Below, one piece after another: positions 1 through 38,419 of a stretch of 64,000 nt of DNA. The first letter of the stretch is position 1, and each line of letters opens with the position of its first letter. This DNA is from Carallia brachiata (Eukaryota > Streptophyta > Magnoliopsida > Malpighiales > Rhizophoraceae): contig JADCRB010000064.1 of the NCBI GenBank assembly GCA_021464245.1, positions 3,527,455 to 3,591,454 on the forward strand, given 5' to 3'. The translations under genes and the position numbers were made by a program. The notes beneath the pieces are model-generated. The model was given only the letters and a program-made list of their open reading frames with translations. It had not been told where the DNA came from and did no database searches.

Positions 1-202
1 AGCTTCCATAGCTCGTTTGGGCGCCTCCCTTGCGAGCTTAACGGCCAAAAAATCCTGATTTGGACCTTTGGGCCGGTTACCGCCTTTTTGGCTTACACAA
101 GACGATGGTGGAAAAGTGCATCGCAGCAGGAACAGTGGCCGCCGATGAATGCAAGCCGATGAGGGGAAGATACTGGAGAATCACTGATGATCTGCGAAAC
201 AT
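1..202 (-). pseudogene. Zinc-finger copy, type II, cut by window edge
   Basis: The 5' part of a minus copy. The CAT at 200-202 is the MFRR start context. The segment for FLAAKLA-like residues lies near the left edge, and the finger-coding part would lie beyond position 1. It faces the plus copy across the CT-rich spacer at 203-361. Confidence 0.7.
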
Positions 203-361
203 ATTTTGTGAAACCCCCTCCCTCTCTCACACACATTCTGAGCTCTCTTTTTCTTTTTTCTCTCCCTCTCTCACTCCCCAAGGCCTCAGAAACCAATAGC
301 ATTCTCAACTTCTCTCTCGTTTGTCTCTCCCCCTCACTCTCCAACACCTCATTCTCACAAA

Positions 362-765
362 AAAAGTTTCGCAGATCATCAGTGATTCTCCGGTGTCTTT
401 CCCTCATCGGCGTGCATTCACCGGCCGCCATTGTTCATGCTGCGATGCACTATTCCACCATTGTCTTGCGTAAGCCGAAAAAGACCAGTAACCGGTCCAA
501 ATCAGGATTTTTTTGGCCGCTAAGCTCGCAACGGAGCCACCCAAACTAGCTATAGAAGCTGACCGCGCAGCCAGGAGCAAGAGCAAGAAGGTTTGCATTT
601 ACTGTGAGAGGCTCTTTGATGAGAAAGTGGAGGCACATGATTGCAAGGTGGATAACGAGCTACTGATGACAGTGCCAAACTGAGGCATTAATGAAGATTC
701 ATGCCAAGAAACGCTGGGTATGCTCTATTTTTTTTTTCCTTATTTTTCTGTCGGTGAACAGGAAC
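362..765 (+). pseudogene. Zinc-finger copy, type II plus (unit 1)
   Basis: The MFRR start codon is lost (AAAAAAAGTTTCGC instead of ATATGTTTCGC); the first available Met is MHYSTIVLRKPKKTSN at 445. A small deletion after CCGGTCCAAATCAGG shifts the frame before the fingers. The first finger (CIYCERLFDEKVEAHDC) is still visible in another frame. The second is removed by a ~30-45 bp deletion that leaves ACAGTGCCAAACTGA. Confidence 0.75.
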
Positions 766-840
766 AGGGACAACCCACAAAACCTACCACACAAAAAGGT
801 CTAAAAAAACAAAAATAAAGAAAAAAGAATAGGGACGTAC

Positions 841-1227
841 CCAGCATTGCGCCATATGAAGCTTCATTATTGTGTCTGTGCTGACGCAATTGCCACATTT
901 GGGGCATGACACGGTCATCAGCAGCTCGTAATCCACCTCACAATCGTGTGCCTCCATTTTCTCGTCAAAAAGCTTCCCACAGTAAATGCAAACCATCTTA
1001 CTCTTGTACCTGGCTGCGCGGTCAGCTTCTATAGCTCGTTTGGGTGCCTCCCTTGCGAGTTTAGCGGCCAAAAAATCCTGATTTGGACCTTTGGGCCGGT
1101 TACTGGCCTTTTTCGGCTTACGCAAGACGATGGTGGAAAAGTGCATCGCAGCAGGAACAACGGCGGCCGGTGAATGCAGGCCGATGAGGGGAAGATACCG
1201 GAGAAACACTGATGATCTGCGAAACAT
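841..1227 (-). CDS. C2HC zinc-finger protein, type I copy, open exon (unit 1)
   Basis: Uninterrupted 129-codon exon beginning MFRRSSVF; the frame is open for a further 15 codons upstream and, read through the intron, down to 784. An alternative start, MHFSTIVLRKPKKASN at 1146, begins the segment best conserved among copies. Two C2HC-like knuckles are visible: CIYC...EAHDC (C-x2-C-x10-H-x-C) and CPKC...LHMAQC (C-x2-C-x12-H-x3-C), preceded by a Lys/Arg-rich stretch. The exon ends TGG followed by GTACGT. This donor position and phase match the two-exon copy at 28.5-29.1 kb, so the full protein would need a second exon, which the array lacks. Family not recognised; nucleic-acid binding is a guess from the fingers and basic residues. 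Expression uncertain. Confidence 0.55.
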
Positions 1228-1392
1228 ATTTTGTGAGAATGAGGCGTTGGAGAGTGAGAGAGGGAGAGACAAAAGGGAGAGAAGTTGAGAATGCTATTGG
1301 TTTCTGAGGCCTTGGGGAGTGAGAGAGGGAGAGAAAAAAAGAAAAAGAGAGCTGAGAATGTGTGTAAGAGAAGGCGGGAGGTCTTCTCAAAG
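1228..1392. promoter_or_regulatory. GA/CT-rich head-to-head spacer (bidirectional leader)
   Basis: About 165 bp of purine-rich sequence on the plus strand (GAGAGAGGGAGAGA repeated) separates the starts of two divergent copies. It matches the 5' leader of the dispersed gene at 29.06-29.21 kb. So the minus copy keeps its own leader and the plus copy borrows it in reverse. Equivalent spacers lie near 203-361, 2258-2423, 3282-3446, 4320-4485, 5334-5497, 6365-6530, 7401-7566 and 8434-8598. Promoter activity is inferred only; no clear TATA box was seen. Confidence 0.5.
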
Positions 1393-1885
1393 TATGTTTC
1401 GCAGATCATCAGTGATTCTTCGGTATCTTCCCCTCATCGGCGTGCATTCACCGGCTGCCACTGTTCCTGCTGCGATACACTTTTTCACCATCGTCTTGCG
1501 TAAGCCGAAAAGGGCTAGCAACCGGCCCAAAGGTCCAAATTAGGATTTTTTTTGCCGCTAAGCTCGCAAGGGAGGCACCGAAGCGAGCTATGGAAGCTGA
1601 CCGCGCAGCCAGGAGCAAGAGCAAGAAGTTTGCATTTACTCTGGGAAGCTTTTTGACGAAAAAGTGGAGGCACACGATTGCGAGGTGCATTACGAGCTGC
1701 TGATGACAGTGTCATGCCCCAAGTGTGGCAATTGCTTCAGTACAGACGCAATAATGAACCTTCATATGACGAAATACTGGGTACGCCCCTATTTTTTTTT
1801 TTCTTTAGTTTTGTTTTTTTATACCTTTTTGTGTGGTAGGCCGTATAGGTTGTGCATGTTCCTGTTCACCGACAGAGAAAGATAA
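1393..1885 (+). pseudogene. Zinc-finger copy, type I plus (unit 1)
   Basis: Starts ATG (MFRR) at 1394 immediately after the GA-rich spacer, with no leader of its own. A 1-3 base loss in AAGAAGTTTGCATTTACTCTGGG shifts the frame and turns the second Cys codon of finger one into TCT. The second finger (CPKCGNCFSTDAIMNLH) remains readable in a different frame from 1664. Confidence 0.75.
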
Positions 1886-1930
1886 AAAAAAAAATAGAGC
1901 ATACTCAACATTTCTTGGTGTGAATCTTCA

Positions 1931-2257
1931 TTAATGCCTCAGTTTGACACTGTCATCAGCAGCTCGTAATCCACCTCGCAATCGTGTGCACTTTCTCGTC
2001 AAAAAGCTTCCCAGAGTAAATGCAAACCTTCTTGCTCTTGTCCCTTGCTGCGCGGTCAGCTTCCATAGCTCGTTTGGGCGCCCTTGCGAGCTTAACGGCC
2101 AAAAAATCCTGATTTGGACCTTTGGGCCGGTTACCGCCTTTTTTGGCTTACACAAGACGATGGTGGAAAAGTGCATCGCAGCAGGAACAGTGGCCGCCGA
2201 TGAATGCAAGCCGATGAGGGGAAGATACTGGAGAATCACTGATGATCTGCGAAACAT
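1931..2257 (-). pseudogene. Zinc-finger copy, type II minus (unit 2)
   Basis: The frame is open from MFRRSSVILQYLPLIGLH but shifts where PKVQIRIFWPLSS replaces PKGPNQDFLAAK. Compared with sister copies it also has small losses in the GGCGCCCTTGCG and CGTGTGCACTTTCTCG segments. Finger two is deleted, as in all type II copies. Confidence 0.72.
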
Positions 2258-2423
2258 ATTTTGTGAAACCCCCTCCCTCTCTCACACACATTCTCAGCTC
2301 TCTTTTTCTTTTTTCTCTCCCTCTCTCACTCCCCAAGGCCTCAGAAACCAATAGCATTCTCAACTTCTCTCTCGTTTGTCTCTCCCCCTCACTCTCCAAC
2401 ACCTCATTCTCACAAAAAAAGTT

Positions 2424-2760
2424 TCGCAGATCATCAGTGATTCTCCGGTGTCTTTCCCTCATCGGCGTGCATTCACCGGCCGCCATTGTTCATGCTGCGA
2501 TGCACTATTCCACCATTGTCTTGCGTAAGCCGAAAAAGACCAGTAACCGGTCCAAATCAGGATTTTTTGGCCGCTAAGCTCGCAACGGAGGCACCCAAAC
2601 TAGCTATAGAAGCTGACCGCGCAGCCAGGAGCAAGAGCAAGAAGGTTTGCATTTACTGTGAGAGGCTCTTTGATGAGAAAGTGGAGGCACATGATTGCAA
2701 GGTGGATAACGAGCTACTGATGACAGTGCCAAACTGAGGCATTAATGAAGATTCATGCCA
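2424..2760 (+). pseudogene. Zinc-finger copy, type II plus (unit 2)
   Basis: Same lesions as the unit 1 plus type II copy: no MFRR ATG, the CCGGTCCAAATCAGG frameshift, and deletion of finger two ending in VDNELLMTVPN then stop. The downstream frame from 2486 still encodes a complete first finger. Confidence 0.72.
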
Positions 2761-2894
2761 AGAAACGCTGGGTATGCTCTATTTTTTTTTTCCTTATTTT
2801 TCTGTCGGTGAACAGGAACAGGGACAACCCACAAAACCTACCACACAAAAAGGTCTAAAAAAACAAAAATAAAGAAAAAAGAATAGGGACGTAC

Positions 2895-3281
2895 CCAGCA
2901 TTGCGCCATATGAAGCTTCATTATTGTGTCTGTGCTGACGCAATTGCCACATTTGGGGCATGACACGGTCATCAGCAGCTCGTAATCCACCTCACAATCG
3001 TGTGCCTCCATTTTCTCGTCAAAAAGCTTCCCACAGTAAATGCAAACCATCTTACTCTTGTACCTGGCTGCGCGGTCAGCTTCTATAGCTCGTTTGGGTG
3101 CCTCCCTTGCGAGTTTAGCGGCCAAAAAATCCTGATTTGGACCTTTGGGCCGGTTACTGGCCTTTTTCGGCTTACGCAAGACGATGGTGGAAAAGTGCAT
3201 CGCAGCAGGAACAACGGCGGCCGGTGAATGCAGGCCGATGAGGGGAAGATACCGGAGAAACACTGATGATCTGCGAAACAT
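2895..3281 (-). CDS. C2HC zinc-finger protein, type I copy, open exon (unit 2)
   Basis: Same structure as the copy at 841-1227, 2054 bp downstream, and with the same protein sequence: 129 codons from MFRR, both finger motifs complete, donor GTACGT after the final Trp codon. It is flanked tail-to-tail by a type II plus copy and head-to-head, across the GA-rich spacer at 3282-3446, by a type I plus copy. Near identity to unit 1 indicates recent copying rather than long independent maintenance. It also lacks a second exon, so a transcript would read into the intron-derived T-rich tail. Confidence 0.5.
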
Positions 3282-3446
3282 ATTTTGTGAGAATGAGGCG
3301 TTGGAGAGTGAGAGAGGGAGAGACAAAAGGGAGAGAAGTTGAGAATGCTATTGGTTTCTGAGGCCTTGGGGAGTGAGAGAGGGAGAGAAAAAAGAAAAAG
3401 AGAGCTGAGAATGTGTGTAAGAGAAGGCGGGAGGTCTTCTCAAAGT

Positions 3447-3938
3447 ATGTTTCGCAGATCATCAGTGATTCTTCGGTATCTTCCCCTCATCGGCGTGCAT
3501 TCACCGGCTGCCACTGTTCCTGCTGCGATACACTTTTTCACCATCGTCTTGCGTAAGCCGAAAAGGGCTAGCAACCGGCCCAAAGGTCCAAATTAGGATT
3601 TTTTTTGCCGCTAAGCTCGCAAGGGAGGCACCGAAGCGAGCTATGGAAGCTGACCGCGCAGCCAGGAGCAAGAGCAAGAAGTTTGCATTTACTCTGGGAA
3701 GCTTTTTGACGAAAAAGTGGAGGCACACGATTGCGAGGTGCATTACGAGCTGCTGATGACAGTGTCATGCCCCAAGTGTGGCAATTGCTTCAGTACAGAC
3801 GCAATAATGAACCTTCATATGACGAAATACTGGGTACGCCCCTATTTTTTTTTTTCTTTAGTTTTGTTTTTTTATACCTTTTTGTGTGGTAGGCCGTATA
3901 GGTTGTGCATGTTCCTGTTCACCGACAGAGAAAGATAA
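3447..3938 (+). pseudogene. Zinc-finger copy, type I plus (unit 2)
   Basis: Carries the same frameshift and Cys-to-Ser change in finger one as the other type I plus copies. Finger two is readable from 3717. The T-rich tail continues to the tail-to-tail junction near 3950. Confidence 0.72.
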
Positions 3939-4010
3939 GGAAAAGAAAATAGAGCATACTCAACATTTCTTGGTGTGAATCTTCATTAATGCCTCAGTTT
4001 GACACTGTCA

Positions 4011-4319
4011 TCAGCAGCTCGTAATCCACCTCGCAATCGTGTGCCTCCACTTTCTCGTCAAAAAGCTTCCCAGAGTAAATGCAAACCTTCTTGCTCTTGT
4101 CCCTTGCTGCGCGGTCAGCTTCCATAGCTCGTTTGGGTGCCTCCCTTGCGAGCTTAACGGCCAAAAAATCCTGATTTGGACCTTTGGGCCGGTTACCGCC
4201 TTTTTTGGCTTACACAAGACGATGGTGGAAAAGTGCATCGCAGCAGGAACAGTGGCCGCCGATGAATGCAAGCCGATGAGGGGAAGATACTGGAGAATCA
4301 CTGATGATCTGCGAAACAT
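4011..4319 (-). pseudogene. Zinc-finger copy, type II minus (unit 3)
   Basis: MFRRSSVILQYLPLIGLH start. The frame then shifts at PKVQIRIFWPLSS, as in 1931-2257, but without that copy's extra small deletions. The finger region is read only out of frame. Confidence 0.72.
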
Positions 4320-4485
4320 ATTTTGTGAAACCCCCTCCCTCTCTCACACACATTCTCAGCTCTCTTTTTCTTTTTTCTCTCCCTCTCTCACTCCCCAAGG
4401 CCTCAGAAACCAATAGCATTCTCAACTTCTCTCTCGTTTGTCTCTCCCCCTCACTCTCCAACACCTCATTCTCACAAAAAAAGTT

Positions 4486-4822
4486 TCGCAGATCATCAGT
4501 GATTCTCCGGTGTCTTTCCCTCATCGGCGTGCATTCACCGGCCGCCATTGTTCATGCTGCGATGCACTTTCCACCATTGTCTTGCGTAAGCCGAAAAAGA
4601 CCAGTAACCGGCCAAAGGTCCAAAGGATTTTTTGGCCGCTAAGCTCGCAACGGAGGCACCCAAACGCTATAGAAGCTGACCGCGCAGCCAGGAGCAAGAG
4701 CAAGAAGGTTTGCATTTACTGTGAGAGGCTCTTTGATGAGAAAGTGGAGGCACATGATTGCAAGGTGGATAACGAGCTACTGATGACAGTGCCAAACTGA
4801 GGCATTAATGAAGATTCATGCC
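4486..4822 (+). pseudogene. Zinc-finger copy, type II plus (unit 3)
   Basis: Type II plus copy with private small deletions (GCACTTTCCACC, AAAGGTCCAAAGGATTTTTT, CCCAAACGCTATAG). The first finger CIYCERLFDEKVEAHDC can be read to the standard type II stop at TVPN. Confidence 0.72.
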
Positions 4823-4954
4823 AAGAAACGCTGGGTATGCTCTATTTTTTTTTTCCTTATTTTTCTTTGTCGGTGAACAGGAACAGGGACAACCCACAAA
4901 ACCTACCACACAAAAAGGTCTAAAAAACAAATAAAGAAAAAAATAGGGACGTAC

Positions 4955-5333
4955 CCAGCATTGCGCCATATGAAGCTTCATTATTGTGTCTGTGCTGACG
5001 CAATTGCCACATTTGGGGCATGACACGGTCATCAGCAGCTCGTAATCCACCTCACAATCGTGTGCCTCCATTTTTCGTCAAAAAGCTTCCCAGTAAATGC
5101 AAACCATCTTACTCTTGTACCTGGTGCGCGGTCAGCTTCTATAGCTCGTTTGGGTGCCTCCTTGCGAGTTTAGCGGCCAAAAAATCCTGATTTGGACCTT
5201 TGGGCCGGTTACTGGCCTTTTTCGGCTTACGCAAGACGATGGTGGAAAAGTGCATCGCAGCAGGAACAACGGCGGCCGGTGAATGCATGCCGATGAGGGG
5301 AAGATACCGGAGAAACACTGATGATCTGCGAAA
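4955..5333 (-). pseudogene. Zinc-finger copy, type I minus, broken (unit 3)
   Basis: The only type I minus copy that is not open. It has lost bases in several places, including the region of the MFRR start (GCGAAATATTTTG), the segment near GGTGCCTCCTTGCG, and finger one (CATTTTTCGTC and TTCCCAGTAAATGC). Finger two (CPKCGNCVSTDTIMKLH) is still readable, and the exon-end donor is present at 4951-4954. Confidence 0.72.
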
Positions 5334-5497
5334 TATTTTGTGAGAATGAGGCGTTGGAGAGTGAGAGAGGGAGAGACAAAAGGGAGAGAAGTTGAGAATG
5401 CTATTGGTTTCTGAGGCCTTGGGGAGTGAGAGAGGGAGAGAAAAAGAAAAAGAGAGCTGAGAATGTGTGTAAGAGAAGGCGGGAGGTCTTCTCAAAA

Positions 5498-5983
5498 TGT
5501 TTCGCAGATCATCAGTGATTCTTCGGTATCTTCCCCTCATCGGCGTGCATTCACCGGCTGCCACTGTTCCTGCTGCGATACACTTTTTCACCATCGTCTT
5601 GCGTAAGCCGAAAAGGGCTAGCAACCGGCCCAAAGGTCCAAATTAGGATTTTTTGGCCGCTAAGCTCGCAAGGGAGCACCGAAGCGAGCTATGGAAGCTG
5701 ACCGCGCAGCCAGGAGCAAGAGCAAGAAGTTTGCATTTACTCTGGGAAGCTTTTTGACGAAAAAGTGGAGGCAAACGATTGCGAGGTGCATTACGAGCTG
5801 CTGATCACAGTGTCATGCCCCAAGTGTGGCAATTGCTTCAGTACAGACGCAATAATGAACCTTCATATGACGAAATACTGGGTACGCCCCTATTTTTTTT
5901 TCTTTAGTTTTGTTTTTTTATACTTTTTGTGTGGTAGGTCGTATAGGTTGTGCAGGTTCCTGTTCACCGACAGAGAAAGATAA
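5498..5983 (+). pseudogene. Zinc-finger copy, type I plus (unit 3)
   Basis: Begins at the MFRR-type ATG just after the GA spacer. It carries the common type I plus frameshift in finger one plus a private loss in GGGAGCACCGAAGC. Finger two is readable from 5765. Confidence 0.7.
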
Positions 5984-6055
5984 GGAAAAGAAAATAGAGC
6001 ATACTCAACATTTCTTGGTGTGAATCTTCATTAATGCCTCAGTTTGACACTGTCA

Positions 6056-6364
6056 TCAGCAGCTCGTAATCCACCTCGCAATCGTGTGCCTCCACTTTCT
6101 CGTCAAAAAGCTTCCCAGAGTAAATGCAAACCTTCTTGCTCTTGTCCCTTGCTGCGCGGTCAGCTTCCATAGCTCGTTTGGGCGCCTCCCTTGCGAGCTT
6201 AACGGCCAAAAAATCCTGATTTGGACCTTTGGGCCGGTTACCGCCTTTTTTGGCTTACACAAGACGATGGTGGAAAAGTGCATCGCAGCAGGAACAGTGG
6301 CCGCCGATGAATGCAAGCCGATGAGGGGAAGATACTGGAGAATCACTGATGATCTGCGAAACAT
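6056..6364 (-). pseudogene. Zinc-finger copy, type II minus (unit 4)
   Basis: Same arrangement and same internal frame shift as 4011-4319, with one R for H difference next to PNELWKL. Finger two is deleted. Confidence 0.72.
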
Positions 6365-6530
6365 ATTTTGTGAAACCCCCTCCCTCTCTCACACACATTC
6401 TCAGCTCTCTTTTTCTTTTTTCTCTCCCTCTCTCTCACTCCCCAAGGCCTCAGAAACCAATAGCATTCTCAACTTCTCTCTCGTTTGTCTCTCCCCCTCA
6501 CTCTCCAACACCACATTCTCACAAAAAAAG

Positions 6531-6870
6531 TTTCGCAGATCATCAGTGATTCTCCGGTATCTTTCCCTCATCGGCGTGCATTCACCGGCCGCCATTGTTC
6601 ATGCTGCGATGCACTTTTCCACCATTGTCTTGCGTAAGCCGAAAAAGACCAGTAACCGGCCCAAAGGTCCAAATCAGGATTTTTTGGCCGCTAAGCTCGC
6701 AACGGAGGCACCCAAACGAGCTATAGAAGCTGACCGCGCAGCCAGGAGCAAGAGCAAGAAGGTTTGCATTTACTGTGAGAGGCTCTTTGATGAGAAAGTG
6801 GAGGCACATGATTGCAAGGTGGATAACGAGCTACTGATGACAGTGCCAAACTGAGGCATTAATGAAGATT
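6531..6870 (+). pseudogene. Zinc-finger copy, type II plus, best preserved (unit 4)
   Basis: From the ATG at 6610 (MHFSTIVLRKPKKTSN) the frame is open through NRPKGPNQDFLAAK and the complete first finger to the type II stop. This copy therefore lacks the CCGGTCCAAATC deletion of units 1-2. It could encode an ~80-residue one-finger protein. Finger two is absent as in all type II copies. Confidence 0.65.
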
Positions 6871-7013
6871 CATGCCAAGAAACGCTGGGTATGCTCTATT
6901 TTTTTTTTCCTTATTTTTCTTTGTCGGTGAACAGGAACAGGGACAACCCACAAAACCTACCACACAAAAAGGTCTAAAAAAACAAATATAAAGAAAAAAG
7001 AATAGGGACGTAC

Positions 7014-7400
7014 CCAGCATTGCGCCATATGAAGCTTCATTATTGTGTCTGTGCTGTCGCAATTGCCACATTTGGGGCATGACACGGGCATCAGCAGCTC
7101 GTAATCCACCTCACAATCGTGTGCCTCCATTTTATCGTCAAAAAGCTTCCCACAGTAAATGCAAACCATCTTACTCTTGTACCTGGCTGCGCGGTCAGCT
7201 TTTATAGCTCGTTTGGGTGCCTCCCTTGCGAGTTTAGCGGCCAAAAAATCCTGATTTGGACCTTTGGGCCGGTTACTGGCCTTTTTCGGCTTACGCAAGA
7301 CGATGGTGGAAAAGTGCATCGCAGCATGAACAACGGCGGCCGGTGAATGCATGCCGATGAGGGGAAGATACCGGAGAAACACTGATGATCTGCGAAACAT
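7014..7400 (-). CDS. C2HC zinc-finger protein, type I copy, open exon (unit 4)
   Basis: Third type I minus copy with an intact frame (129 codons from MFRR). It differs from units 1 and 2 by substitutions such as K for E in APKRAIKAD, a D before the first-finger KMEAHDC, P for T in the MPVSC segment and D for V in CGNCDSTD. The Cys and His residues of both knuckles are kept. The changes are amino-acid replacements without frame loss, but with three open copies I cannot tell purifying selection from recent origin. It ends at the same donor position as its siblings and lacks exon 2. Confidence 0.5.
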
Positions 7401-7566
7401 ATTTTGTGAGAATGAGGCGTTGGAGAGTGAGAGAGGGAGAGACAAAAGGGAGAGAAGTTGAGAATGCTATTGGTTTCTGAGGCCTTGGGGAGTGAGAGAG
7501 GGAGAGAAAAAAGAAAAAGAGAGCTGAGAATGTGTGTAAGAGAGGGCGGGAGGTCTTCTCAAAATA

Positions 7567-8060
7567 TGTTTCGCAGATCATCAGTGATTCTTCGGTATCT
7601 TCCCCTCATCGGCGTGCATTCACCGGCTGCCACTGTTCCTGCTCCGATGCACTTTTTCACCATCGTCTTGCGTATGCCGAAAAAGGCTAGCAACCGGCCC
7701 AAAGGCCCAAATTAGGACTTTTTTGGCCGCTAAGCTCGCAAGGGAGGCACCGAAGCGAGCTATGGAAGCTGACCGCGCAGCCAGGAGCAAGAGCAAGAAG
7801 TTTGCATTTACTCTGGGAAGCTTTTTGACGAAAAAGTGGAGGCACACGATTGCGAGGTGCATTACGAGCTGCTGATGACAGTGTCATGCCCCAAGTGTGG
7901 CAATTGCTTCAGTACAGACGCAATAATGAACCTTCATATGACGAAATACTGGGTACGCCCCTATTTTTTTTTCTTTAGTTTTGTTTTTTTATACTTTTTG
8001 TGTGGTAGGCCGTATAGGTTGTGCATGTTCCTGTTCACCGACAGAAAAAGATAAGGAAAA
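7567..8060 (+). pseudogene. Zinc-finger copy, type I plus (unit 4)
   Basis: ATG (MFRR) directly after the GA spacer. Shared finger-one frameshift and Cys loss. Finger two is readable from 7836. Confidence 0.7.
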
Positions 8061-8109
8061 GAAAATAGAGCATACTCAACATTTCTTGGTGTGAATCTTC
8101 ATTAATGTC

Positions 8110-8418
8110 TCAGTTTGACACTGTCATCAGCAGCTCGTAATCCACCTCGCAATCGTGTGCCTCCACTTTCTCGTCAAAAAGCTTCCCAGAGTAAATGCAA
8201 ACCTTCTTGCTCTTGTCCCTTGCTGCGCGGTCAGCTTCCATAGCTCGTTTGGGTGCCTCCCTTGCGAGTTTAGCGGCCAAAAAATCCTGATTTGGACCTT
8301 TGGGCCGGTTACTGGCCTTTTTCAGCTTACGTAAGACAATGGTGGAAAAGTGTATCGCAGCAGGAACAACGGCGGTCGGTGAATGCACGCCGATGAGGGA
8401 AAGATACCGGAGAATCAC
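8110..8418 (-). pseudogene. Zinc-finger copy, type II minus (partial unit 5)
   Basis: The best preserved minus type II copy: open from MILRYLSLIGVHSPTAV through NRPKGPNQDFLAAK and finger one to the type II end. However, the second Cys of finger one is Ser (CIYSGKLF). Its leader belongs to an atypical GA-orientation spacer (8434-8598). Confidence 0.65.
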
Positions 8419-8598
8419 TGATGATCTGCGAAACTTTTTTTGTGAGAATGAGGTGTTGGAGAGTGAGGGGGAGAGACAAACGAGAGAGAAGTTGAGAATG
8501 CTATTGGTTTCTGAGGCCTTGGGGAGTGAGAGAGGGAGAGAAAAAAGAAAAAGAGAGCTGAGAATGTGTGTAAGAGAGGACTGGAGGTTTTCTCAAAA

Positions 8599-8909
8599 TA
8601 TGTTTTGCAGATCATCAGTGATTCTTCGTTATCTTCCCCTCATCGGCGTGCATTCACCGGCTGCCCTTGTTCCTGCTGCGATGCACTTTTTCACCATCGT
8701 CTTGCGTAAGCCGAAAAAGGCTAGCAACCGGCCCAAAGGTCCAAATTAGGATTTTTTTGGCCGCTAAGCTCGCAAGGGAGGCACCGAAGCGAGCTATGGA
8801 AGCTGACCGCGCAGCCAGGAGGAAGAGCAAGAAGTTTGCATTTACTTTGGGAAGCTTTTTGACGAAAAAGTGGAGGCACACAATTGCGAGGTGTATTACG
8901 AGCTGCTGA
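8599..8909 (+). pseudogene. Zinc-finger copy, type I plus, truncated at array end
   Basis: Last copy of the array. It runs from ATGTTTTGCAG after the spacer to the codons before LLMTV and stops abruptly at TACGAGCTGCTGAT, where unrelated sequence leading into the MORC-bearing duplicate begins. It carries the type I plus frameshift in finger one. Confidence 0.72.
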
Positions 8910-8927
8910 TTCATGTTAATTTAATTA

Positions 8928-11900
8928 AGCTGCAATCTCATAAAAAATTTAATCTCAATGCTATCAAATATAGCTATTATTTGGCGTTTCATGTTAATTC
9001 AATTTTCAGATTAAGTGCTGAGGAATTTTGAATTATTAAAGCAAAATTAGTCCCACTTCTGTTCCGTCAGCTGGAATCATGTTTCCTTCAAGAGATGCAA
9101 AGTGTTGCATATACATAAAAAGAAATAATAATCACCTCGCTATCTCATAAAACCTTGAGGAAAACAGTATCCTTTTCTATACCTCTACTTAATCAACGTT
9201 ATTTGTGCATCAGAATAGACACAAGCAGGAAGCCACTTTTGAGATGCAGTTACTAATACATTGGCAATTCGTATCATATGTATAGAAACAGCTAAAATCT
9301 TTTTCACTTAGACAACTTAATATGCAACCACCAGTTTGTGGTCTGTACTGAATGAATTCGATAATTTAAGGTTGTCTGCAATATTATGCCGTTCAACAAC
9401 TTGTCTGAATTCATGAATTAGTGGAGATAAAGTTGTATGGGAAAATTAATCAAAATATGAAGTTGCACTTACATGAAGTGAGTAACAATAAGCATGAGCT
9501 ATGTGCTGGATGGATGTTGGGCTAATTTCCCCACTGATCCTAACATCCTATATTCATTGTCTCACAAAAAGCAAATGCATCAAGGATAGTTCAAGATATG
9601 GTTCATAATAAAATGAATGCAAAGGGATCAAGACTACCTGGGCATTGGAATCAAAATCCAGTTCCATATTCCCATCATCATTTAACCAAAGATTGAAGAT
9701 GATAATTTTTGTTCCCTGATGCCCTATGTCATAAAACTGATTCTTGGACTAGTAAGAAAGAGAAATGAGTTAACGAAGCTTGAGAATGTCAAAGAATCAA
9801 AAGCTATCACCACAACAGTAACTGCATGTCTCAATATCAAAGTCCTAATAGCCTTTCTTCCATCAGTTCCAATTACGATCAGTGTGAACATTTTAGAACA
9901 CAACAATATATCTGATGTATTCACTTAAGCAATCAGAAATTTCACTCTTTCCGTCCTCAATTTCAATTAAACAAGCCTCCTAACATGTTGTTTAGGACAT
10001 TAGCTGCTTACTACTGTGTGGGTAAATGATGCAACAAGAAGAAGCAAAGGACGAGCTATACCATCTTAACCCTACAAGAAAATTTATAAAACTTTTATCA
10101 ACCTTTTTGCTTTTCATATTTAAAAACCATCACTATTAAGTATATTATTCACATGGGATGTGCAGGCAGATGATCAGTCATAATAATTTTCCTCCTCCTT
10201 TCAGGGTTTCAGTGTTTCAGTGTTCCTCATTCCATACGATGATTAGCCAGCATTCCATGGTTATGTTAATTGAGTTGATTCCTTGATATTTGACCACAAA
10301 ATTGACTTCTTGAGGTTTTTTTTATACATGGCATATGAAATTCTGTTGTCATTTAATGCCCAAACACCCTAAATAATGCAGTCTTATCAATCTTGCACTA
10401 TGCTACCAAATTTGTGCAGCCAAAAGATTCTTCAGGCTTACTTGCTTCAGCAGATCCTCTTCAGTTGAATAAGGAGACCATTGCAGTAGCATGGACAGAT
10501 TTGAACGAAATGCTTCTTTTCCATGAGGTAGAATGGGACTGAGGGTTTCAGTTGATGTGTTAAACTCATAATCCACCTGCATTAATAAGAAAGCTGACAG
10601 TAAGATTGCCGGGGTGTACCCTTGGCCACCAAAGAAAACCTGCAGTTGAGAATCAATCCATGGGAAAAATCCACAATGACCTGAAGATCTGGGAATGGGA
10701 CTTGAGAACATATTAGCTATACAAGGAATGGAAGAAGATGGAATCGCTCAATTTGGAGTAAACATAAAAAGGAGTTTGCTCCCGCTCCCACTGAGAAGCA
10801 ATAAACAAACACTCGTGTTGTTACCAGCCCTTGTTTCCAGGTTTCCTAAACATCCATTTTGGTTGATTTCAACAAAAAAGATACTGAGATTCCACATTAA
10901 ACTGCTTATTCTTAAGCATACGAATGATGCCTAAGTTCGTATTGGCCCTAGCGTGTACGTGCATCCTCAGCAGCTCACAATCATATTCCGCAGAGAGTTC
11001 AAGTAATGTGTGACTACAGAGTGCAAGTACCTGATACAAATATTAATTTCATGGACTAACATGGAAAGTTGAAAACCAGTAACATAAATTAAGAATGAAC
11101 ATTTGAAAGATCCAATGGGTAATACAAGAGTGATCAAAGTTTATACCCACCATTGGTACCACAATCCTGTCACGGCCCATTTGCCTTAAAAATGTATAAG
11201 AGAGAAGACAAATACTTTGAGTCACTAAGCTCGTCTCCACATGGCGGCTGAAGACAATAACATCAGCTCCAAGTCGCATAGTGCTTGTCTTGAAACCATT
11301 TCCATCTAAAAGAGGGGCCGTGAATAAGCAAAACTAGAAAGGAATACATAATAAAGCTATAATCAACAGAATATGGTCCATACACTGTCCAATGGAATGC
11401 TTTGTTTTCTCTGTAAAGCCAAAGCTCATACAGTTCCTTATAGCTTCTGGACCCATTCCCCTACCATTGTCTTCTTGTTGAAAATCATCAAGTTTCAGAT
11501 GCAAAAGATTTAGTTGAGGATCTTGTCAACATATCATAAAGAAATTATAAGCACTGAATGAAAAAGTTACTTTGAATTAGCAAAGCAGGACTCCCATCTC
11601 GGGAATTTGAGACCTCGTTTATGATGACAGATGTGGCCCCACTTTGTATCTGACAAAAAAGCAGCATTAGAGGATGATCACACTAAACCTTCATCAGAAC
11701 AAAACTTCAACAACAATGAGAACAGTTTTCAATTCATTCCATAGCTTTCTTTCTAACACAACATTCTGGCACAGATTATACCCTGTAGGACACAACTGAG
11801 AAAGAAATTCTGTCTTTAAGACTTCACAAAACTATACACATTGCTGCCATACTATTTTTGAAAACACTGTCCTTAATTGCCCAGAAGCTATTCTCTGAAG

Positions 11901-12943
11901 AAAAAAGAAGTCGTACTACTTTGAAAACAGTGTTCTTAGATATCCAGAAGCTAATCTCTGAAAACAAAAGAAGTCCAATCATTAGACTTTACCGCATCAA
12001 TTGCATTATCAACCAGCTCTGCTATCGCTGCAAAGAGAGCGCAACAAACGGAGACAGAGGAGAGGACTACACGTCAGATTAAAAAAAAATAACCAAAAGC
12101 GCAGCGCATTAAAGCAAAGCATATAACTAATATCATCCACAAACCAAACAAACCGCCAAAGACCCACTTATGTGAGGTTGCATTTGAATGAAGAAACATG
12201 GGATGCACATGCAGATGATTTTTGTTGTCTGCAATCAACAAGCAAAATCAATATTTAGATAGATAGCAAAGGTAAAACACTCAAATTCGAGCAAAAATGG
12301 AGAAGTAAATTTTATAATCATGAAATCAAGTTTGGCAGGTTTTCTACTAAGTTCTGAATCCCGGTCAACTGTAAGGCTTCTTCTTGTGAAATTTATTAAT
12401 GAAGACTTGGCTACTTTCCGCGTCAATGATTATTGCAATTTTCTTTTTTTTTTTTTGGCATACCCAGATAAAGTCAGTAAACAAAAAAAATTTTAACCAA
12501 CAAGTGTTGGTTCAGTTGGTTAGTAGGCTGATCTCAAGTAGATTCACCTGCCAAAAAGTAGGGTTTCAAACTTGGAAAAGGGACTTGTTGGGAGGGAAAA
12601 AAAACCCGTAGTGCTCTAACCGATTGGCCACCATTTTTTGCACCAAAGTAAACAACAAGAATTTTGAAATAGCCAATTTCTTACTTAGATTTGAAGCTTT
12701 GCAATCCTGTGTCAGCCCAATTTCATAATTCCCAGCCTTCCAGAATTTCCGACAGACTGGAGCAGGAGAGAGTTGGAGTTCTGAAGAATGGGTTGGCTTA
12801 TCGATTAGTGAAGCACCTCCTTCATCCGAACTACTAGAGCCCCTCAATCTTGTGCTAGAAACATTTGCATTTCCGTTGCCATTCGATTTCCGAAACTCAT
12901 CATCACCACTACTGCGCACTTCTAAAAAACCTGGAGGCCTCAT
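8928..12943 (-). pseudogene. MORC6: MORC6-like GHKL ATPase, 3'-truncated copy A
   Basis: Start codon at 12943 (MRPPGFLEVRSSGDDEF). Exons corresponding to 1-9 of copy B are present down to 9473, with GT-AG borders. They encode FWKAGNYEIG, the N-terminal HPMFLHSNATSHKW block, the GHKL N-box AELVDNAID, the DNGRGMGPEAIRNC loop, FKTSTMRLGADVIVF, VDYEFNTSTE and FNLWLNDDGNMELDFDS. Exon 8 (9736..9638) is in frame here, unlike in copy B. Exon 10 has lost its acceptor and about 80 bp, and exons 11-18 are missing because homology stops near 8928, close to the zinc-finger array. The residue after NAID is Ala where copy B has Glu. No complete ATPase plus coiled coil can be made, so I call it a pseudogene or partial gene. 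Confidence 0.82.
12505..12650 (+). mobile_element. Possible tRNA-derived SINE in MORC intron 1
   Basis: Contains a tRNA-like A-box context (GGTTCAGTTGGTTAG) followed about 40 bp later by a B-box-like GGTTTCAAACT. It is flanked by similar 9-10 bp direct repeats, AACCAACAAG (12495-12504) and AACAACAAG (12651-12659). The same element is at 53160-53310 in copy B, so it predates the duplication. Family not identified. Confidence 0.4.
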
Positions 12944-13019
12944 TTTAATTGCTGCGAAAAATACAACAATCCACATCAATTTTCTTATTAAACAAAAAAA
13001 AAAAAAAAAAAAGGCAACG

Positions 13020-14011
13020 CTAAGGTTGGAACATTGCAGCTAATGAATAATAATCAAAATCAAGAGCACACGAGTAGTAAGACGGCAAAAGCAAACAAAG
13101 ATAGTCGAAATTAGGAAGGAAAACCAGTTAAATGCTTGGGAAACAAATTCAAAATCACTTCAAAACAGCTCGTCACAAGCAAATAATTGAAGGTCAAGAG
13201 GAGATGAATTTTGTCTATACTCTGCAGATTTTCTTGGAGATGAGCGCACGGTGGCTAAAAGAAAAACCTGCTTCTGTAAACTTTGAAGACAAGCCAAGAA
13301 AATGAAGCGTGTTTGGCAAAAACTTTTCCTTCATATTTTTATCGCAAAGAAAAATACGCAAAAATTTGGACACTGAAATATTTATATAAAACGTTAGGTA
13401 GATTCTTAATAATAATTATAAATTTAATATATAAAGATTTATATTATTAAATCTAAAAAATATAATATATTTAAATAAATTATTAAATTAATTAATTATT
13501 TTATTTTATTTTTTTTGGTAAAAAAATTATTGTATATATCTCAGTCATTAAATTAAATTTGTAGGTTAGATCAGAGATTATCTATTTTATATTTGTTTAA
13601 CCCCACTCATTATAAGAGAGTATTACTCAAAAATTATTAAAATTATACGTGAATATTTTAAATTAACTTAATATTGTAAATTGTAAATTAAAGCACCTAC
13701 TATTTAATATTACTGAATTTCTTCTAAAAAAAAGTAAAATTTTAAGCGCAGTTTATAATATTCGAGTTAATATAATGAGTAAGGAAAATATGTCGCTTTT
13801 CTATCATACTATAGTTAATTACTTATTTTAAATTTATTATAAATTTATCGTAAATTTTGTAATTGTATAAGGTGATTAAAAATTTATTGCAGTTGATAAT
13901 ATTGTAAGGAATCCGAAGGATTGAAACGCGTGATACTGACAAGGACGAGCAAGTACGCAAAAGAAGCGGGGGAATGACCACGTGTCATTTTCATTATCTC
14001 TACTCTTGACA
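13020..14011. other. MORC copy A 5' leader and promoter region
   Basis: Upstream of the MORC start. It is AT-rich from 13380 to 13880 with no coding signal. A conserved block at about 13895-14011 contains the G-box/ABRE core CACGTG at 13979-13984 and matches 54703-54821 closely. Position 13405-13415 (TTAATAATAA) is the empty site of the MITE found in copy B at 54053-54574. Confidence 0.6.
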
Positions 14012-19990: not shown

Positions 19991-20209
19991 CGATATATGG
20001 TTGAAATTTAAAAAAATTGTTGAGTGAAAGAACGAGCGGAGACTCAGAGCGGAGCTTGAGAATCTGGTTGTAGTGGTTTGCATCATCAAGACCAAAGTCC
20101 CCAAGCAAAACCCCAACAGCAACGCCACCAACACTTTCCTTTTCCATTTGCAATGAGATTTCTGATTGTGTTGCGCAGCCGCCGCCGCCGCCAACTTTCG
20201 GTGCTTCAT
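19991..20209 (-). pseudogene. N-terminal fragment of a signal-anchor membrane protein
   Basis: A 73-codon frame beginning MKHRKLAAAAAAQHNQKSHC, followed by basic residues (KWKRK) and a hydrophobic stretch (VLVALLLGFCLGTLVLMM). This is the layout of a type II signal anchor such as those of Golgi glycosyltransferases. No catalytic domain follows; beyond 20000 the sequence becomes AT-rich. I read it as a first exon or truncated 5' end left at a rearrangement point, next to the truncated 3' end of the RNase H1-type gene. Family not identified. A short divergent frame starts at 20262 (MAEKTGSELYKNKGKTAF) and has no recognisable domain. Confidence 0.4.
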
Positions 20210-20289
20210 TTAGCCGACTTCCTTTTTTTTCTTTTTTTTTCACTCCTATTCTTCCTCCACCATGGCCGAAAAGACTGGAAGTGAGTTAT

Positions 20290-20782
20290 ACAAAAACAAA
20301 GGAAAGACGGCTTTTTGCCCGACTTGTCGGCTCGGTGCAAAAATTGGGAAGTCCGGGCGGTCAGAAACGCGAATCGTCGTTTATTGGAAATAGTAGTGGA
20401 AGGAGCGTGGCTTGACCTGACATGGAAATCAGCTTCTTGCCTTTTTATGTTTTTTTTTTTCTTTTCAAGAAACCTTTTTATGTTTTTCTTTTTTTTTTCT
20501 TTTAAATTATGTTTAAATAAAATTCTTAAAAAAAAAAGAAAAGTGAAAGAGAAGAAAGTAAGAGAAAGAATTATTAGAAAAATATTTTTTATTATTTTTT
20601 ATATTTGAAAAGAGGTGATAGAAGAAATAAAGAAAAATTATAAATTATTTTGTTTAAAAAAGAGTGAAAAGTAATGAGAGAAAACTAAAATATATTAGTA
20701 TAACATTTTCACTTTTTGTAATAAATTATATTTAAATATTTTATTGAAATAAAATTGTAATTATTAGACAAAACTTGCAAGG
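20290..20782. other. AT-rich spacer, no gene seen
   Basis: T- and A-run-rich DNA (20450-20760) with no ORF of interest and no clear repeat ends. Confidence 0.5.
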
Positions 20783-21153
20783 TTCAGGCATATTAGACTG
20801 TATGGGGGAATCTTTCAATGCCAAAAAGTCACACCTCCCCCGCTATCGAAGGCGGGGGAAACCATCGGAGACGCCAACCCGCACCAAGCTCACGAGCACC
20901 AAGGCACTTGATCAAAGAAGACGACCCACACCTTTAGCAATAGCAACCACAGCAACAGAAACGAAACCAGACAATAGGACAAGGTCCCACCCAAACCCAC
21001 AAAGGGTAGAAAGCTCACGGAGAAGTACGAACACTCACACCAACCAAGAGACCAACCGAGTGGCTGGAATAGAAGAAGAAAGCTCTTGACACACATTAAT
21101 AGAAACGTGTGCACAATAGCAAACCTTTGTTAATACATTGTATAACATCATTA
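20783..21153 (-). mobile_element. Partial copy of the retro-insertion at 39742-40587
   Basis: Collinear with 40210-40587 (shared TCAATGCCAAAAAG, CCAACCCGCACCAAGCTCA, ACCCACAAAGGGTAGA, TGGAATAGAAGAAGAAAGCT). It includes the 17 bp ATTGTATAACATCATTA (21137-21153) that flanks the 40 kb element, but lacks the poly(A)-side half. It is therefore a fragment, possibly copied at DNA level together with part of the flank. Confidence 0.7.
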
Positions 21154-23280
21154 AGAATGATTTAGAGTCAATTTAATTAATGAATCCGCAAATATTTTTG
21201 TAGTATTTGTGAATGTAATTACTAGACAATATTCATGTTGGTATGGTCGAAATGTGGACTTTCTTTTGGGTTTCTCTGGATAGGACCATATCAATTATTT
21301 TTATTAATAAATGCATAATAAATAAACTTTTCATTGAAAGAAATTCCTAATTCGGTCCTAGTTATTTTCAAAGAGCTTTCCTATTCCAACTTTATTTTAG
21401 ATAAAGTTTATTTATCTCTTTCATGAGTTCATAAGTGAACAGATAGTTAAACAAGGAAATTATATTTCAAATAAAACATATTTATAGTTTTAAAAATGGG
21501 AAAATTTTGGTTGTTTAACTTCAATAGTTACAAAATAATAATAAAATGTTATAGGCCATTGAACTATTGAATTAAAAAAATAGAAAACAAATAAATTGTC
21601 AGACACCGTTGATTAGACTATGTAACTGCTCTGAAAATAACGAAACGAAGCCATCTAGTGTTATTTCTAAAAATATAGTTGTCTCCAAAATGAAATGTAA
21701 TACGTAATTAAATTTTGATAACAAGTGAGAAACCTGCTCTCAGATGCGTGGTTGTCTAATAAACTGGACAAAAAATTTATGCTAATTATATAAAGTCAAT
21801 TTGTTTGATTCATTTTTCTCTAGATAAGAGCAACGTTTAATTAATAATTAAGAGAAAAATTTTAAAAAATTATATTCAAAAACAAATTCGCATTAAATCC
21901 CAAAAAAAATACTACTTTCCTTTTTAGGGTTCATTTAATTTAGGGTTAATGTAAAAAAAAAAAAGCACAAACTTTTAACTTTTTTCTAATTTTAGCATGA
22001 GCTTTTTTTTTTATCCAATATAACACGAAGTTTATAACTGGGTCTAAACATATCAATTCATCAATATCAGTTAAAAAACTCTATTATTTCAGTGTTGTGA
22101 AATACCAAGTTGGCACAAAAGCCTACGTCACCATGCTATGTAGATGCTTTAATTCTGACTTAATTTTTATAATAAAAAATTAATAAAAATTAGTTGTCAT
22201 CGCAAGCATGTAAAAAAAAATATTTCATTCTTTACATATAAGGTGAATTTATTTAATGGAAACTTAGGGCACATTCACATTAATTTCGGAAAATTCTTCT
22301 TTTGTCAATAGAAGATATGACAAGACTATCATTTAAAAAAAGAGGAGTTAGAAAGAGATTGAGATTTAAACTAAAGTCTTTCAATTGAACGCCACCATCC
22401 AATCACTTCAACGGTTTAACTATTTGTGAGACCTGAATTTGGGAAATTTCTCTGAATGACAACAGAAAACCATGGAACAGGGCCACCTAGCCAGACCGGT
22501 CCATTCTATCAGGCTCAAAAACAAGAAGCGTTCATTTCGCCGCCGTCGGGAATCAATTGTCAAGATTCAAGACCAATAGACTATTAGCCATAAAATGTTC
22601 ATGGGCATGAAAACCCAAATAACCATGCATTAAAGCCTAACCTAAAAGTTCTTAGGAGGCCCAAGTTGAGAATGGACGTATTGTGTCTATCAGCACTGCT
22701 ATTGCCATAATATATTTTTTTTCTGGCTTAATAGTTCTGATCAAAAGCCCTTGCACGGCCCAAACCCAATATATTCAGTTACTCCCATAACGCCAATCTA
22801 ACTTGGGCCCCTTTTTCGGAAAACAATTTTTCAATCGATTATCATTGACAATGCTGTTGACATCCAGTAGATAACCACTTCCCACGGTGTCTGTCTGCGC
22901 AGCATTTCGTCGAAGATTTGGCAAACCAAAACTTGGTTCCCCACGTGTCGTATCCGTGACGATAAGGAATGTTTTTTATTTTTTGTTTGTCTTGAAAGAA
23001 TGGTCACTATCACCGAAGAGTAATCAGAAGTGAGTAGATTCAAACTACGGTTAATTAATCTCCACTCACTGTAGAGGCACGTTCTCATTCCTACTGCTTC
23101 TTGGGACGGTTATTCTAGTTAACAGGGAAGGGGAGGTGTGGAAGAGGCTTCTAATGCATTTTAACTAGCTGTCAGGTGCCAACTATGTTCTCCTATTTCA
23201 ATTTTCCTAGCAGCTAAACAGAGCTCTGAAAAAACAAGGGAAAGAAAAAGGGGTGAAGAATCGGAATAACTGTTTTTAAG
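21154..23280. other. Intergenic, no gene recognised
   Basis: AT-rich DNA. The segment 21930-22240 (TTAGGGTTAATG..., then long A/T runs) resembles degenerate MITE sequence, but I could not define ends. 22440-23100 has scattered short ORFs without domains. Confidence 0.45.
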
Positions 23281-23522
23281 AAGTGAAAATTTCCATTATC
23301 AAAGAACTTAAAATACAAACAAGGACTGTTAAACCACCGACACCGTCAAAGGGATTGGTGGCAAGCTAACCTAAACAAATCAAAACTACATTAATGAAGG
23401 AAAATTCCTTATGTCCTGCAAAAGCCCAAGATTATTTATAACTCCACATTTGACTTCAAACTCAGTAACAGAAGAAAGTCTCAATATTGAGACTTACAAA
23501 AGTGTCTCAATAAATCAACCTC

Positions 23523-23819
23523 TCACGTCCGAGTGGTCTTAACTGCATCGGCCGCCGTGAGCCGCTTGGCTTGCATTGAAGCAGTGGAGCTAAGGTAGTT
23601 TTCAATGGAAGAGTAGGCTTCACTGCGCATCAAGCGCTCACCCACGAATTCGTTGAAGGTGATTTCTGTACAAGGGTACACAAAAGTGAAGATTCTTGGG
23701 GAGTATTTCTCTGTGTAGTGTCTAAGTTCATAAGGGCAATATTGCTTGAACATGGCCCAGATAAACATTAGACCTGCAATAATGGAACCCAGATGAGCAA
23801 ACATGTCTCCTGACTTCAT
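23523..23819 (-). pseudogene. Truncated AAA-ATPase, AAA_assoc N-terminal domain only
   Basis: A 98-codon ORF reading GSIIAGLMFIWAMFKQYCPY, then ELRHYTEKYSPRIFTFVYP, ITFNEF and GERLMRSEAYSSIENYLSS. This is the membrane-anchored N-terminal region of plant AAA-ATPases of the At3g28580/ASD type, which normally have ~500 residues with a Walker-type ATPase core. Here a stop follows AKRLTAADAVKTTRT, and downstream sequence (23280-23520) has no AAA domain. It may be a truncated gene copy. A short standalone membrane peptide is possible but unsupported. Confidence 0.75.
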
Positions 23820-24059
23820 ATTGGAATCTTTAAAAATTGCCTTTTTCTTCCTCTGGAAAATACAATCTGGCTTACTTGCGGGGTGGGGGCTGTTGTATTG
23901 AGAGTTGAGGAGATTTATTGATCCAGATCAAGCCTAGAACACAAGGAGGCAGAATAATTGAAGGAAAAGTAAAAAAGGTTGTGGTCCTGAGGAGAGGAGC
24001 AGAGAAATAACAGGAAGATGTGAAAGAGGACGATTAATTGTTGGAAGTGAAATATTTAA

Positions 24060-27000: not shown

Positions 27001-27100
27001 AAAAAAAAAAAACGCCAAAAAAGAAAAGCAAATTCAAAGCATTAGCGAAACAGTAGCAAAGAACCCTAGAGCAATCTCATATGTCTGTCGTAGAAAAAAA
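24060..27100. other. Intergenic, no gene recognised
   Basis: AT-rich stretches (24060-24190), homopolymer runs (C run near 25052-25068, T runs near 25494-25512, A runs near 25830 and 25960) and several short ORFs without recognisable domains. ORFs on both strands at 26073-26550 overlap and show no motif. Confidence 0.45.
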
Positions 27101-27101
27101 C

Positions 27102-27145
27102 AAACCCCTAACGCCACATCTTGTTATCACCAATGACTTAAACTC
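27102..27145 (-). pseudogene. Fragment resembling exon 2 end of the zinc-finger gene
   Basis: AAACCCCTAACGCCACATCT and the following 24 bases align with 28518-28562, the last codons, stop and start of the 3' UTR of the two-exon zinc-finger gene, with several mismatches. No matching exon 1 is seen nearby. It could be a relic of a third, dispersed copy or a shared repeat. Confidence 0.35.
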
Positions 27146-27407
27146 AAACAAACATAAAGAAAAAATTATCAAATCATCAGCCAAACTATCAACTGGAGTG
27201 TTGATTTACCTCTCCAACTGAAAACACTATGCTTACTAATATTGGCATTGGCCTCGTTGATTTCTACTTAGTATTTATGGCCGTAGATGTCTTTTATCGT
27301 GTTTTATCTAAAATTATCAGAATGGGACCGTTATCGAACTGAAAATATTAGTAGGTCAGGTCAAAGTTCAACTAGTTGAACATTTCAAACCGATATTTGA
27401 ACTAGTA

Positions 27408-27413
<6 letters not shown>

Positions 27414-27453
<40 letters not shown>
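27414..27453. repeat. (AT)n microsatellite
   Basis: About 19 AT units, embedded in AT-rich intergenic DNA. Confidence 0.95.
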
Positions 27454-27457
<4 letters not shown>

Positions 27458-28500: not shown

Positions 28501-28524
28501 AATAACCAGAAAAAATTAAAATCC

Positions 28525-29059
28525 CTAACGCCACATCTTGTAACAACCGACGAAGTTTGAGTCATTGCCGTGTTTTCCCTTGATATACTCTACTCCCATC
28601 GCATTGATATGCCACCCATTCTGCAAAAATAAGAATTAATTTTTGAACAGGAACAGCACGACTAAAGAAAAATAAGGAAAAAAAAATAAAGCATACATAG
28701 CATTTCTTGGCGTGAATCTCCATTAATGCGTCAGTGCAAAAGCAATTGCCACACTTGGGGCATGATACTCTCATCTCTAGCTCGTAATCCTCCGTGCAAT
28801 CATTTGCCACCACTTTCTCATCAAAAAGCCTCCCACAGTATATGCAAACTTTCTTGCTCTTTTCCCTGGCGGCACAGTCAGTCCTGGCCAGCTTAGCGGC
28901 CAAAAAATCCTGATTTGGACTTTTGTGCTGGTTGCTGGCCTTTTTCAGCTTACGCAAGACGATGGCGAAAAAGTTCATCGTAGCAGAAACAGTAACGGCC
29001 GGTGAACGCACGCCGATGAAAGAAATATATTGGAGAATTAGTGATAATCTGCGAAACAT
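28525..29059 (-). CDS. C2HC zinc-finger protein, dispersed two-exon copy
   Basis: Exon 1: 29059..28697 (121 codons from MFRRLSLILQ; alternative start MNFFAIVLRKLKKASN at 28978). Donor GTATGC, acceptor TTTTTGCAG. Exon 2: 28620..28525 (31 codons and TAG), beginning NGWHINAMGVEYIKGKHGND and in phase. Predicted length 152 or 125 residues. Both finger motifs are recognisable, CIYC...NDC and CPKC...IHAKKC, but the His of finger one is Asn here (VVANDC versus VEAHDC in the array). It also lacks the 8-residue APKRA-containing segment of array copies. It shares the GA-rich leader (29060-29215) with the array and shows the gene structure from which array copies derive. Family not recognised. It is a relative, not necessarily the direct parent, of the array. 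Confidence 0.65.
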
Positions 29060-29236: not shown

Positions 29237-29238
<2 letters not shown>

Positions 29239-29282: not shown

Positions 29283-29287
<5 letters not shown>

Positions 29288-38416: not shown

Positions 38417-38419
38417 TTA

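Follow-up and report, generated by a model that had tools for sequence, protein, structure and literature searches.

Here, we describe an unusual array of inverted gene fragments from Carallia brachiata (Rhizophoraceae, Malpighiales), found at the left end of a stretch of 64,000 nucleotides (the window: assembly GCA_021464245.1, contig JADCRB010000064.1, positions 3,527,455 to 3,591,454 of the forward strand) and extending beyond it. The array consists of 37 first-exon copies derived from a small zinc-finger-like gene, and a scan with one exon revealed that their orientation alternates strictly over its whole length. We suggest that it was born by recombination as a tandemly amplified inverted repeat of exon 1 fragments and that it works as a natural hairpin RNA locus, a reading that is held tentatively and given slightly less than an even chance. 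All coordinates are window positions; values of 0 and below lie left of the window.

Architecture of the alternating exon array

The array spans about 18.8 kb (approximately -9872 to 8910), its right-hand half (1..8910) lying inside the window and the rest in 30 kb of sequence fetched to the left. The scan returned 38 array segments besides the lone relative described below (28.7-29.06 kb), and the alternation is perfect across the whole array only because two of them (-4597 to -4548 and -4553 to -4351) are counted as one copy, a hybrid that has lost its middle. Within 1-8910 there are 17 copies plus copy c20, which starts left of the window (-116 to 202), making 18 without any exception in orientation. 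The first-pass annotation had claimed just this for positions 1-8909 (about 18 copies). Copies of like orientation and class are spaced by 2.05-2.07 kb (e.g., plus-strand copies at 1394, 3447, 5497 and 7566). This period, too, had been recognized correctly for a composite unit that was thought to be repeated about 4.3 times, an extent that has to be revised to the span and the 37 copies given here. A tRNA scan and a tandem-repeat scan restricted to periods up to 500 returned nothing for the array.

Two types of copies occur: type I (approximately 390 bp) contains both fingers and type II (approximately 320 bp) has lost finger 2. The regular part (c12-c35, i.e., 24 copies with six per class) follows the order -II, +II, -I, +I, which gives six complete quadruplets of 2.05 kb, with irregular ones to their left. 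Identity figures computed from these copies amount to 0.969-1.0 within a class and 0.849-0.911 between classes, the four positional classes being 9-15% apart, each with its class-specific mutations. Since the identity within a class extends over hundreds of bases, a chance origin of the pattern is excluded. The quadruplet itself is palindromic: the example at 4000-5815 aligns with its own reverse complement at 84.6% identity over 1,874 columns, and a separate alignment of the arms comprises 771 identical bases out of 868 aligned ones, plus 80 gap columns. The locus thus deserves the description as a palindrome of palindromes that had been proposed for it. Its two head-to-head spacers (II and I) are reverse complements of each other (92.8%) and the same is true for the two tail-to-tail spacers (84.5%). 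A leader with homology to the approximately 108 bp that precede the ATG of a lone intact relative (see below) is owned by 19 of the 37 copies, which in the regular part means all six +II and all six -I copies and none of the +I (0/6) or -II (0/6) copies. In the phylogenetic tree the type I copies group with the last copy, c37 (support 0.73).

Towards the edges the array becomes irregular. The nearest class is +I for c02 (-) and -I for c03 (+), both at 0.936, and +II for c04 (-) at 0.945, and leaders are present on c03 and c04 as in the -I and +II classes which they resemble. Judged from these affinities the left-edge block c02-c04 (-9714 to -7818) is turned round, and the leftmost pair, once considered as the founder kind, was dropped with this finding. 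Copy c01 is almost equally distant from both II classes (0.902 and 0.893), and c10-c12 are irregular in their class order. By inspection, the array begins in a leader on its left and ends in the middle of an exon on its right. These edges bear on the idea that a foldback or another transposable element captured the exon and then multiplied. Such an element would account for a structure rich in inverted repeats and for a captured gene fragment without exon 2, but its ends should correspond, and edges so unlike cannot carry matching terminal inverted repeats; inspection of both array ends found none. Moreover, no second array occurs in the 230 kb fetched to the left of the window or elsewhere in the window. 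We consider a transposable origin very improbable.

The quality of the assembly deserves attention as well. Copies c12-c16, c24 and c29-c31 (located at -4193 to -1850, 1945-2257 and 4483-5884) each show two to seven small deletions if compared to their own class and mostly zero to two substitutions, the exceptions being c15 (six substitutions, five deletions) and c31 (three and two). This clustering suggests an unpolished long-read consensus inside the array, which means that the exact copy number and the fine reading frames are not certain; some frame breaks are probably assembly errors. One could go further and ascribe both copy number and alternation to mis-assembled fold-back or repeat reads, for which the same deletion clusters speak. 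However, fold-back reads would give nearly identical arms, whereas the classes differ by 9-15% and carry their own mutations, so the inversions are, on this sequence evidence, not artefacts of that kind. In addition, the edge copies show more divergence and adjoin unlike flanks. The copy number could still be wrong, yet an artefactual origin of the array as a whole has only a small probability.

Coding state of the copies and their lone relative

Only five of the 37 copies (c03, c08, c22, c26 and c34) are open from the ATG to the splice donor. According to a script-based count 12 copies have no ATG at the usual place; in the regular +I class five of six copies reach a stop after 49 codons and the sixth, c15, reaches one earlier, and one frame shift is common to all six regular -II copies. 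A convincing equivalent of exon 2 of the lone gene is missing both within the array and next to it, the best match outside the lone gene having an E value of 0.47. Among four of the open copies (c26 was left out, being identical to c22 in the exon columns) the ratio of nonsynonymous to synonymous divergence (dN/dS) is 0.56-1.37 in five pairs and undefined in one (dS 0), very few changes being involved; each of these four copies compared to the lone gene yields 0.50-0.55. The intact frames under purifying selection that would characterize a functional cluster of zinc-finger genes were thus not found. It might be argued that the open copies encode a two-finger protein of 129 amino acids or longer, and that the frames of c14, c18 and c30 are perhaps broken only by assembly deletions. 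Nevertheless, exon 2 (beginning with NGWH) is absent from the array though present both in the lone gene and in a more distant relative, and with so few open copies and such dN/dS values the array does not represent a protein-coding cluster that is being maintained, as had already been supposed in the first-pass annotation. That its open copies nevertheless work as protein-coding genes is the least probable of the explanations weighed here.

The lone intact relative lies to the right of the array in the window. Its two exons, with splice sites placed and joined by eye, encode a protein of 152 amino acids, and its first exon is 78-83% identical to the array copies. It is the best candidate for a putative target of the array. 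A distant two-exon relative (L027:6762-7221), about 63 kb left of the left edge of the array, shares 31% identity over 98 residues with it. Since the intron position and the second-exon start NGWH are the same in both, they look like members of a genuine small gene family in which two CxxC...H..C motifs are seen by eye. A proline-rich stretch is located near the N-terminus of the distant relative (L027:6590-7230). The motifs resemble CCHC-type zinc fingers by eye; the Pfam matches seen are below cut-off, one of the searches listing cut-offs for the first member. At E 0.001/0.01 no relative was detected, either with the protein of 152 amino acids (12 candidates) or with a four-row alignment (3,120 candidates), although a PPR control in the same database returned 4,712 hits (of the 120 listed, those that carry a name are from plants). 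Therefore, the small gene looks lineage-restricted, or else too short and diverged. A search of the genome with a generic C2H2 finger pattern (128 matches compared to 42 for the reversed-pattern control) was too unspecific and remained unused.

Hairpin potential and genomic context

Four neighbouring pairs of copies were folded for both strands. Their minimum free energies range from -569 to -711 kcal/mol compared to means of -226 to -300 for shuffled sequences (eight shuffles per pair and strand), and the longest uninterrupted helices comprise 25-68 bp. Transcripts from either strand are thus predicted to fold back into very stable hairpins in all four pairs, which agrees with the original expectation for this locus. 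The lone locus (660 nt including leader and intron) yields 641 21-mers, of which 60 have an exact match in the array and 258 a match with no more than two mismatches, and none occurs in three control stretches; 23 of the exact ones lie within exon 1.

We infer the most likely order of events because the pattern of leader ownership and the grouping of the type I copies in the tree fit its prediction. In the beginning there would have been a tail-to-tail inverted pair (+II / -I), both members with leaders, to which a leaderless inverted copy of the pair (+I / -II) would have been joined head-to-head. Amplification of the resulting quadruplet would have followed, chiefly through unequal exchange, and at least one block would have been inverted at the left edge. 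Transcription, dicing and silencing would be the most likely sequel. Transcripts would enter the array, most plausibly as read-through from a MORC-like gene on its right that lacks its 3' part, fold into long duplexes and be diced to small interfering RNAs (siRNAs) of 21-24 nt. Besides the array itself, the targets of these siRNAs would be related genes, e.g., the lone copy at 28.5-29.1 kb. The first-pass annotation had likewise proposed a natural small-RNA locus aimed at the zinc-finger gene family, a reading that finds partial support here.

Several observations weigh against this proposal. The turned-round copies at the left edge are not predicted by this simple history. Of the 60 exact 21-mers, 32 fall within or span the leader and five fall in the intron, i.e., maybe outside the mature target RNA. 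The hairpin partners (-I/+I 0.904, -II/+II 0.897, +II/-I 0.881, +I/-II 0.893) are no more alike than the non-partners (-I/-II 0.897, +I/+II 0.866), and for this reason there is no sign of selection on the duplex. The ratio of observed to expected CpG is 0.74 in the array compared to 0.55 in the remaining window sequence with its lower G+C content, and CpG sites account for only four of the 19 derived C>T/G>A changes, so there is no sign of long-standing dense methylation either. Finally, dS between the lone gene and the array is 0.37-0.42, whereas the long pieces of a flanking duplication (described below) differ by 5-12% and shorter ones by up to 21%. Since the distance between the lone gene and the array thus exceeds that between the long pieces of the duplicates, this gene may represent an older relative instead of the direct parent of the array.

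Such observations lead to the serious and main rival of the proposed function, namely that the array is inert debris: a palindromic pseudogene array, untranscribed and functionless, shaped by drift and recombinational homogenisation. The decayed frames, the dN/dS values, the hybrid copy at -4597 and the near-identical quadruplets follow from recombination and drift alone, and so do the turned left block, the lack of excess similarity between the arms and the missing methylation footprint. On the other hand, the inverted gene repeats PAI, CHS and ARR17 of plants make siRNAs, and here a gene points into the array. It has to be kept in mind that these three are a biased sample since they were discovered through their silencing. 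Altogether, we regard inert debris as a quite plausible explanation with a substantial probability, which falls somewhat below that of a hairpin RNA locus.

The surroundings of the array were shaped by a large segmental duplication that flanks it (approximately 35 kb each, 79-95% identical in pieces). On the left, -19719..-19274 and -15611..-12931 match 20030-20462 and 23151-25928 (85% and 88%, respectively), and on the right 8927-15633 matches 49583-56023 in pieces of 79-95%. The array sits in the non-matching stretch between them (-12931..8927 versus 25928..49583), the counterpart of which contains the lone gene, local repeats and a PPR gene. The left flank of the array compared to 25.9-28.5 kb shows only 59-67% identity over longer stretches, mostly in one A+T-rich stretch at approximately 27.4-27.7 kb.

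Two paralogous MORC-like genes (copies A and B) belong to this duplication. The homology of copy B to copy A ends at 8927, only 17 bases from the edge of the array, and copy A extends by eye further leftward past the point where the array cuts copy B; approximately 49000-49070 in copy A reads by eye, from its motif, like a putative further MORC exon. The direction of copy B, towards the array, was deduced from its open reading frames (ORFs). A PDB sequence search with two exon peptides of the right flank that were picked and joined by eye gave nine hits, all of them MORC proteins (MORC3, MORC2 and MORC4; E 3.9e-08 to 7.2e-06), and Pfam returned no match for the MORC exon pieces. Plant MORC proteins act in the silencing of repeats.

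Table 1. Features of the array and its surroundings (window positions)
Feature	Position	Strand	Remarks
Palindromic quadruplet, example (-II, +II, -I, +I)	4000..5815	.	self reverse-complement alignment
Class -II copy, finger 2 deleted, shifted frame	4000..4319; others -116 to 202, 1945-2257, 6045-6364	-	
Head-to-head spacer II	4329..4471	.	leader owned by +II copy
Class +II copy, lacking a start codon, with finger 2 deleted	4483..4794; others 366-677, 2421-2731, 6530-6848	+	
Class -I copy, full exon, both fingers	4952..5336	-	not open to splice donor
Further -I copies in window	838-1227, 2892-3281, 7011-7400	-	all three open to splice donor
Head-to-head spacer I	5347..5493	.	leader owned by -I copy
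Class +I copy	5497..5884; others 1394-1783, 3447-3836, 7566-7955	+	stop after 49 codons (CAG to TAG) in 4/4
Mixed-type right-edge copy c36	8116-8434	-	nearest -II (0.942) but with leader
Last copy c37, truncated mid exon at right edge of array	8600..8910	+	nearest +I (0.959)
MORC-like gene copy B, 3' part missing	8927..13441	-	points towards array
Right member of left-flank duplication	20030..25928	.	pieces 20030-20462, 23151-25928
Lone intact relative	28525..29059	-	exon 1 28697-29059, intron, exon 2 28528-28620, stop 28525-28527
MORC-like gene copy A, paralogue	49583..54083	-	matching part only

Further features of the window are a second local repeat cluster at 29331-37124, where 29332-30205 and 34375-35244 are 98.6% identical and 47-bp tandem arrays occupy 32927-34368, and a PPR protein at 44069-46312, the best-matching named relatives of which come from Hevea (73%) and Manihot (72%). 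One Hibiscus PPR hit carries the name HFM1-like helicase. Exon-like ORFs of a DEAD/DEAH-type helicase gene are located at 58425-63766 (Pfam DEAD, 2.8e-06, in one piece).

Comparison with known hairpin and inverted-repeat loci

The first-pass annotation stated that no system of this architecture has been described. This was too strong, as tandem hairpin RNA arrays exist in Drosophila (hp-CG4068 and hp-tHMG; PMC10317233). The hp-CG4068 locus comprises 20 tandem hairpins in D. melanogaster and nine in D. simulans, and the hp-tHMG cluster of D. simulans is derived from a gene and contains 13 hairpins in approximately 27 kb (PMC10317233). CG4068 is the former esi-2 (PMC8127995). As in these fly loci, the copy number of which is unstable, many hairpin units stand in tandem at one locus in Carallia. 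The differences are that the Drosophila arrays belong to the Dcr-2/AGO2 pathway with demonstrated siRNAs, whereas the array described here, with its predicted hairpins, lies in a plant and has a doubly palindromic quadruplet as its unit. Among the literature matches listed there was no plant tandem hairpin array.

In plants the known cases are inverted repeats of genes. PAI1-PAI4 in the Ws accession of Arabidopsis, driven by a fused upstream promoter (PMC3203196), are tail-to-tail inverted copies like those described here, and the foreign promoter upstream of PAI would have its parallel in the gene that points into the array. A further similarity is that related genes, unlinked in the case of PAI, are the targets or candidate targets. 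However, PAI1-PAI4 is a single inverted gene pair with small RNAs and methylation demonstrated, in contrast to an exon array of 37 copies. The I locus of soybean (CHS1-3-4 / CHS4-3-1) is an inverted cluster of approximately 27 kb that is altered by recombination, and the silenced genes CHS7/CHS8 show 81% similarity to CHS4, a member of the inverted repeat from which the siRNAs are made (PMC6710647). This value is comparable with the identity between the lone exon and the array copies. Nevertheless, the soybean locus is one large inverted repeat with two arms of 10.9 kb, unlike the many short copies of Carallia. Poplar, too, belongs to the Malpighiales. Its ARR17 locus contains inverted partial gene fragments, small RNAs are confined to two inverted segments, and the ARR17 duplicates are under relaxed selection (PMC9636151). 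It differs in having only a few fragments, in being sex-linked and in the 24-nt siRNAs reported for it.

With these plant loci the array shares inverted gene copies that are predicted by folding to form long double-stranded RNA and a match to a separate gene that, to judge from the 21-mer overlap, would suffice for action in trans; with the fly loci it shares the tandem repetition of the hairpin unit. On paper, its mode of action would therefore be that of the established inverted-repeat siRNA loci, in a tandem arrangement as found in flies. Regarding its origin, template switching yields inverted amplifications in yeast (PMC11790251) and is a possible first step also for this array. Hairpin RNAs are believed to originate from duplicated copies of their targets (PMC10292708), and hairpin transgenes with mismatches denser than those between the arms of the array avoid self-silencing (PMC9263138).

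A more far-reaching interpretation would see here a plant counterpart of the Drosophila tandem hairpin clusters, i.e., a recent expansion in which read-through from the truncated MORC-family gene feeds a pool of siRNAs with approximately 10% mismatches that silences a lineage-restricted zinc-finger family in an intragenomic conflict. This remains a speculation that we consider unlikely in its entirety. In any case the array can be read as a record of its possible origin from an inverted pair via an inverted copy of this pair to tandem amplification. If siRNAs are made from it, it would represent a natural case of mismatched long hairpins, and it would mean that plants, like flies, can amplify hairpin RNA loci into tandem arrays.

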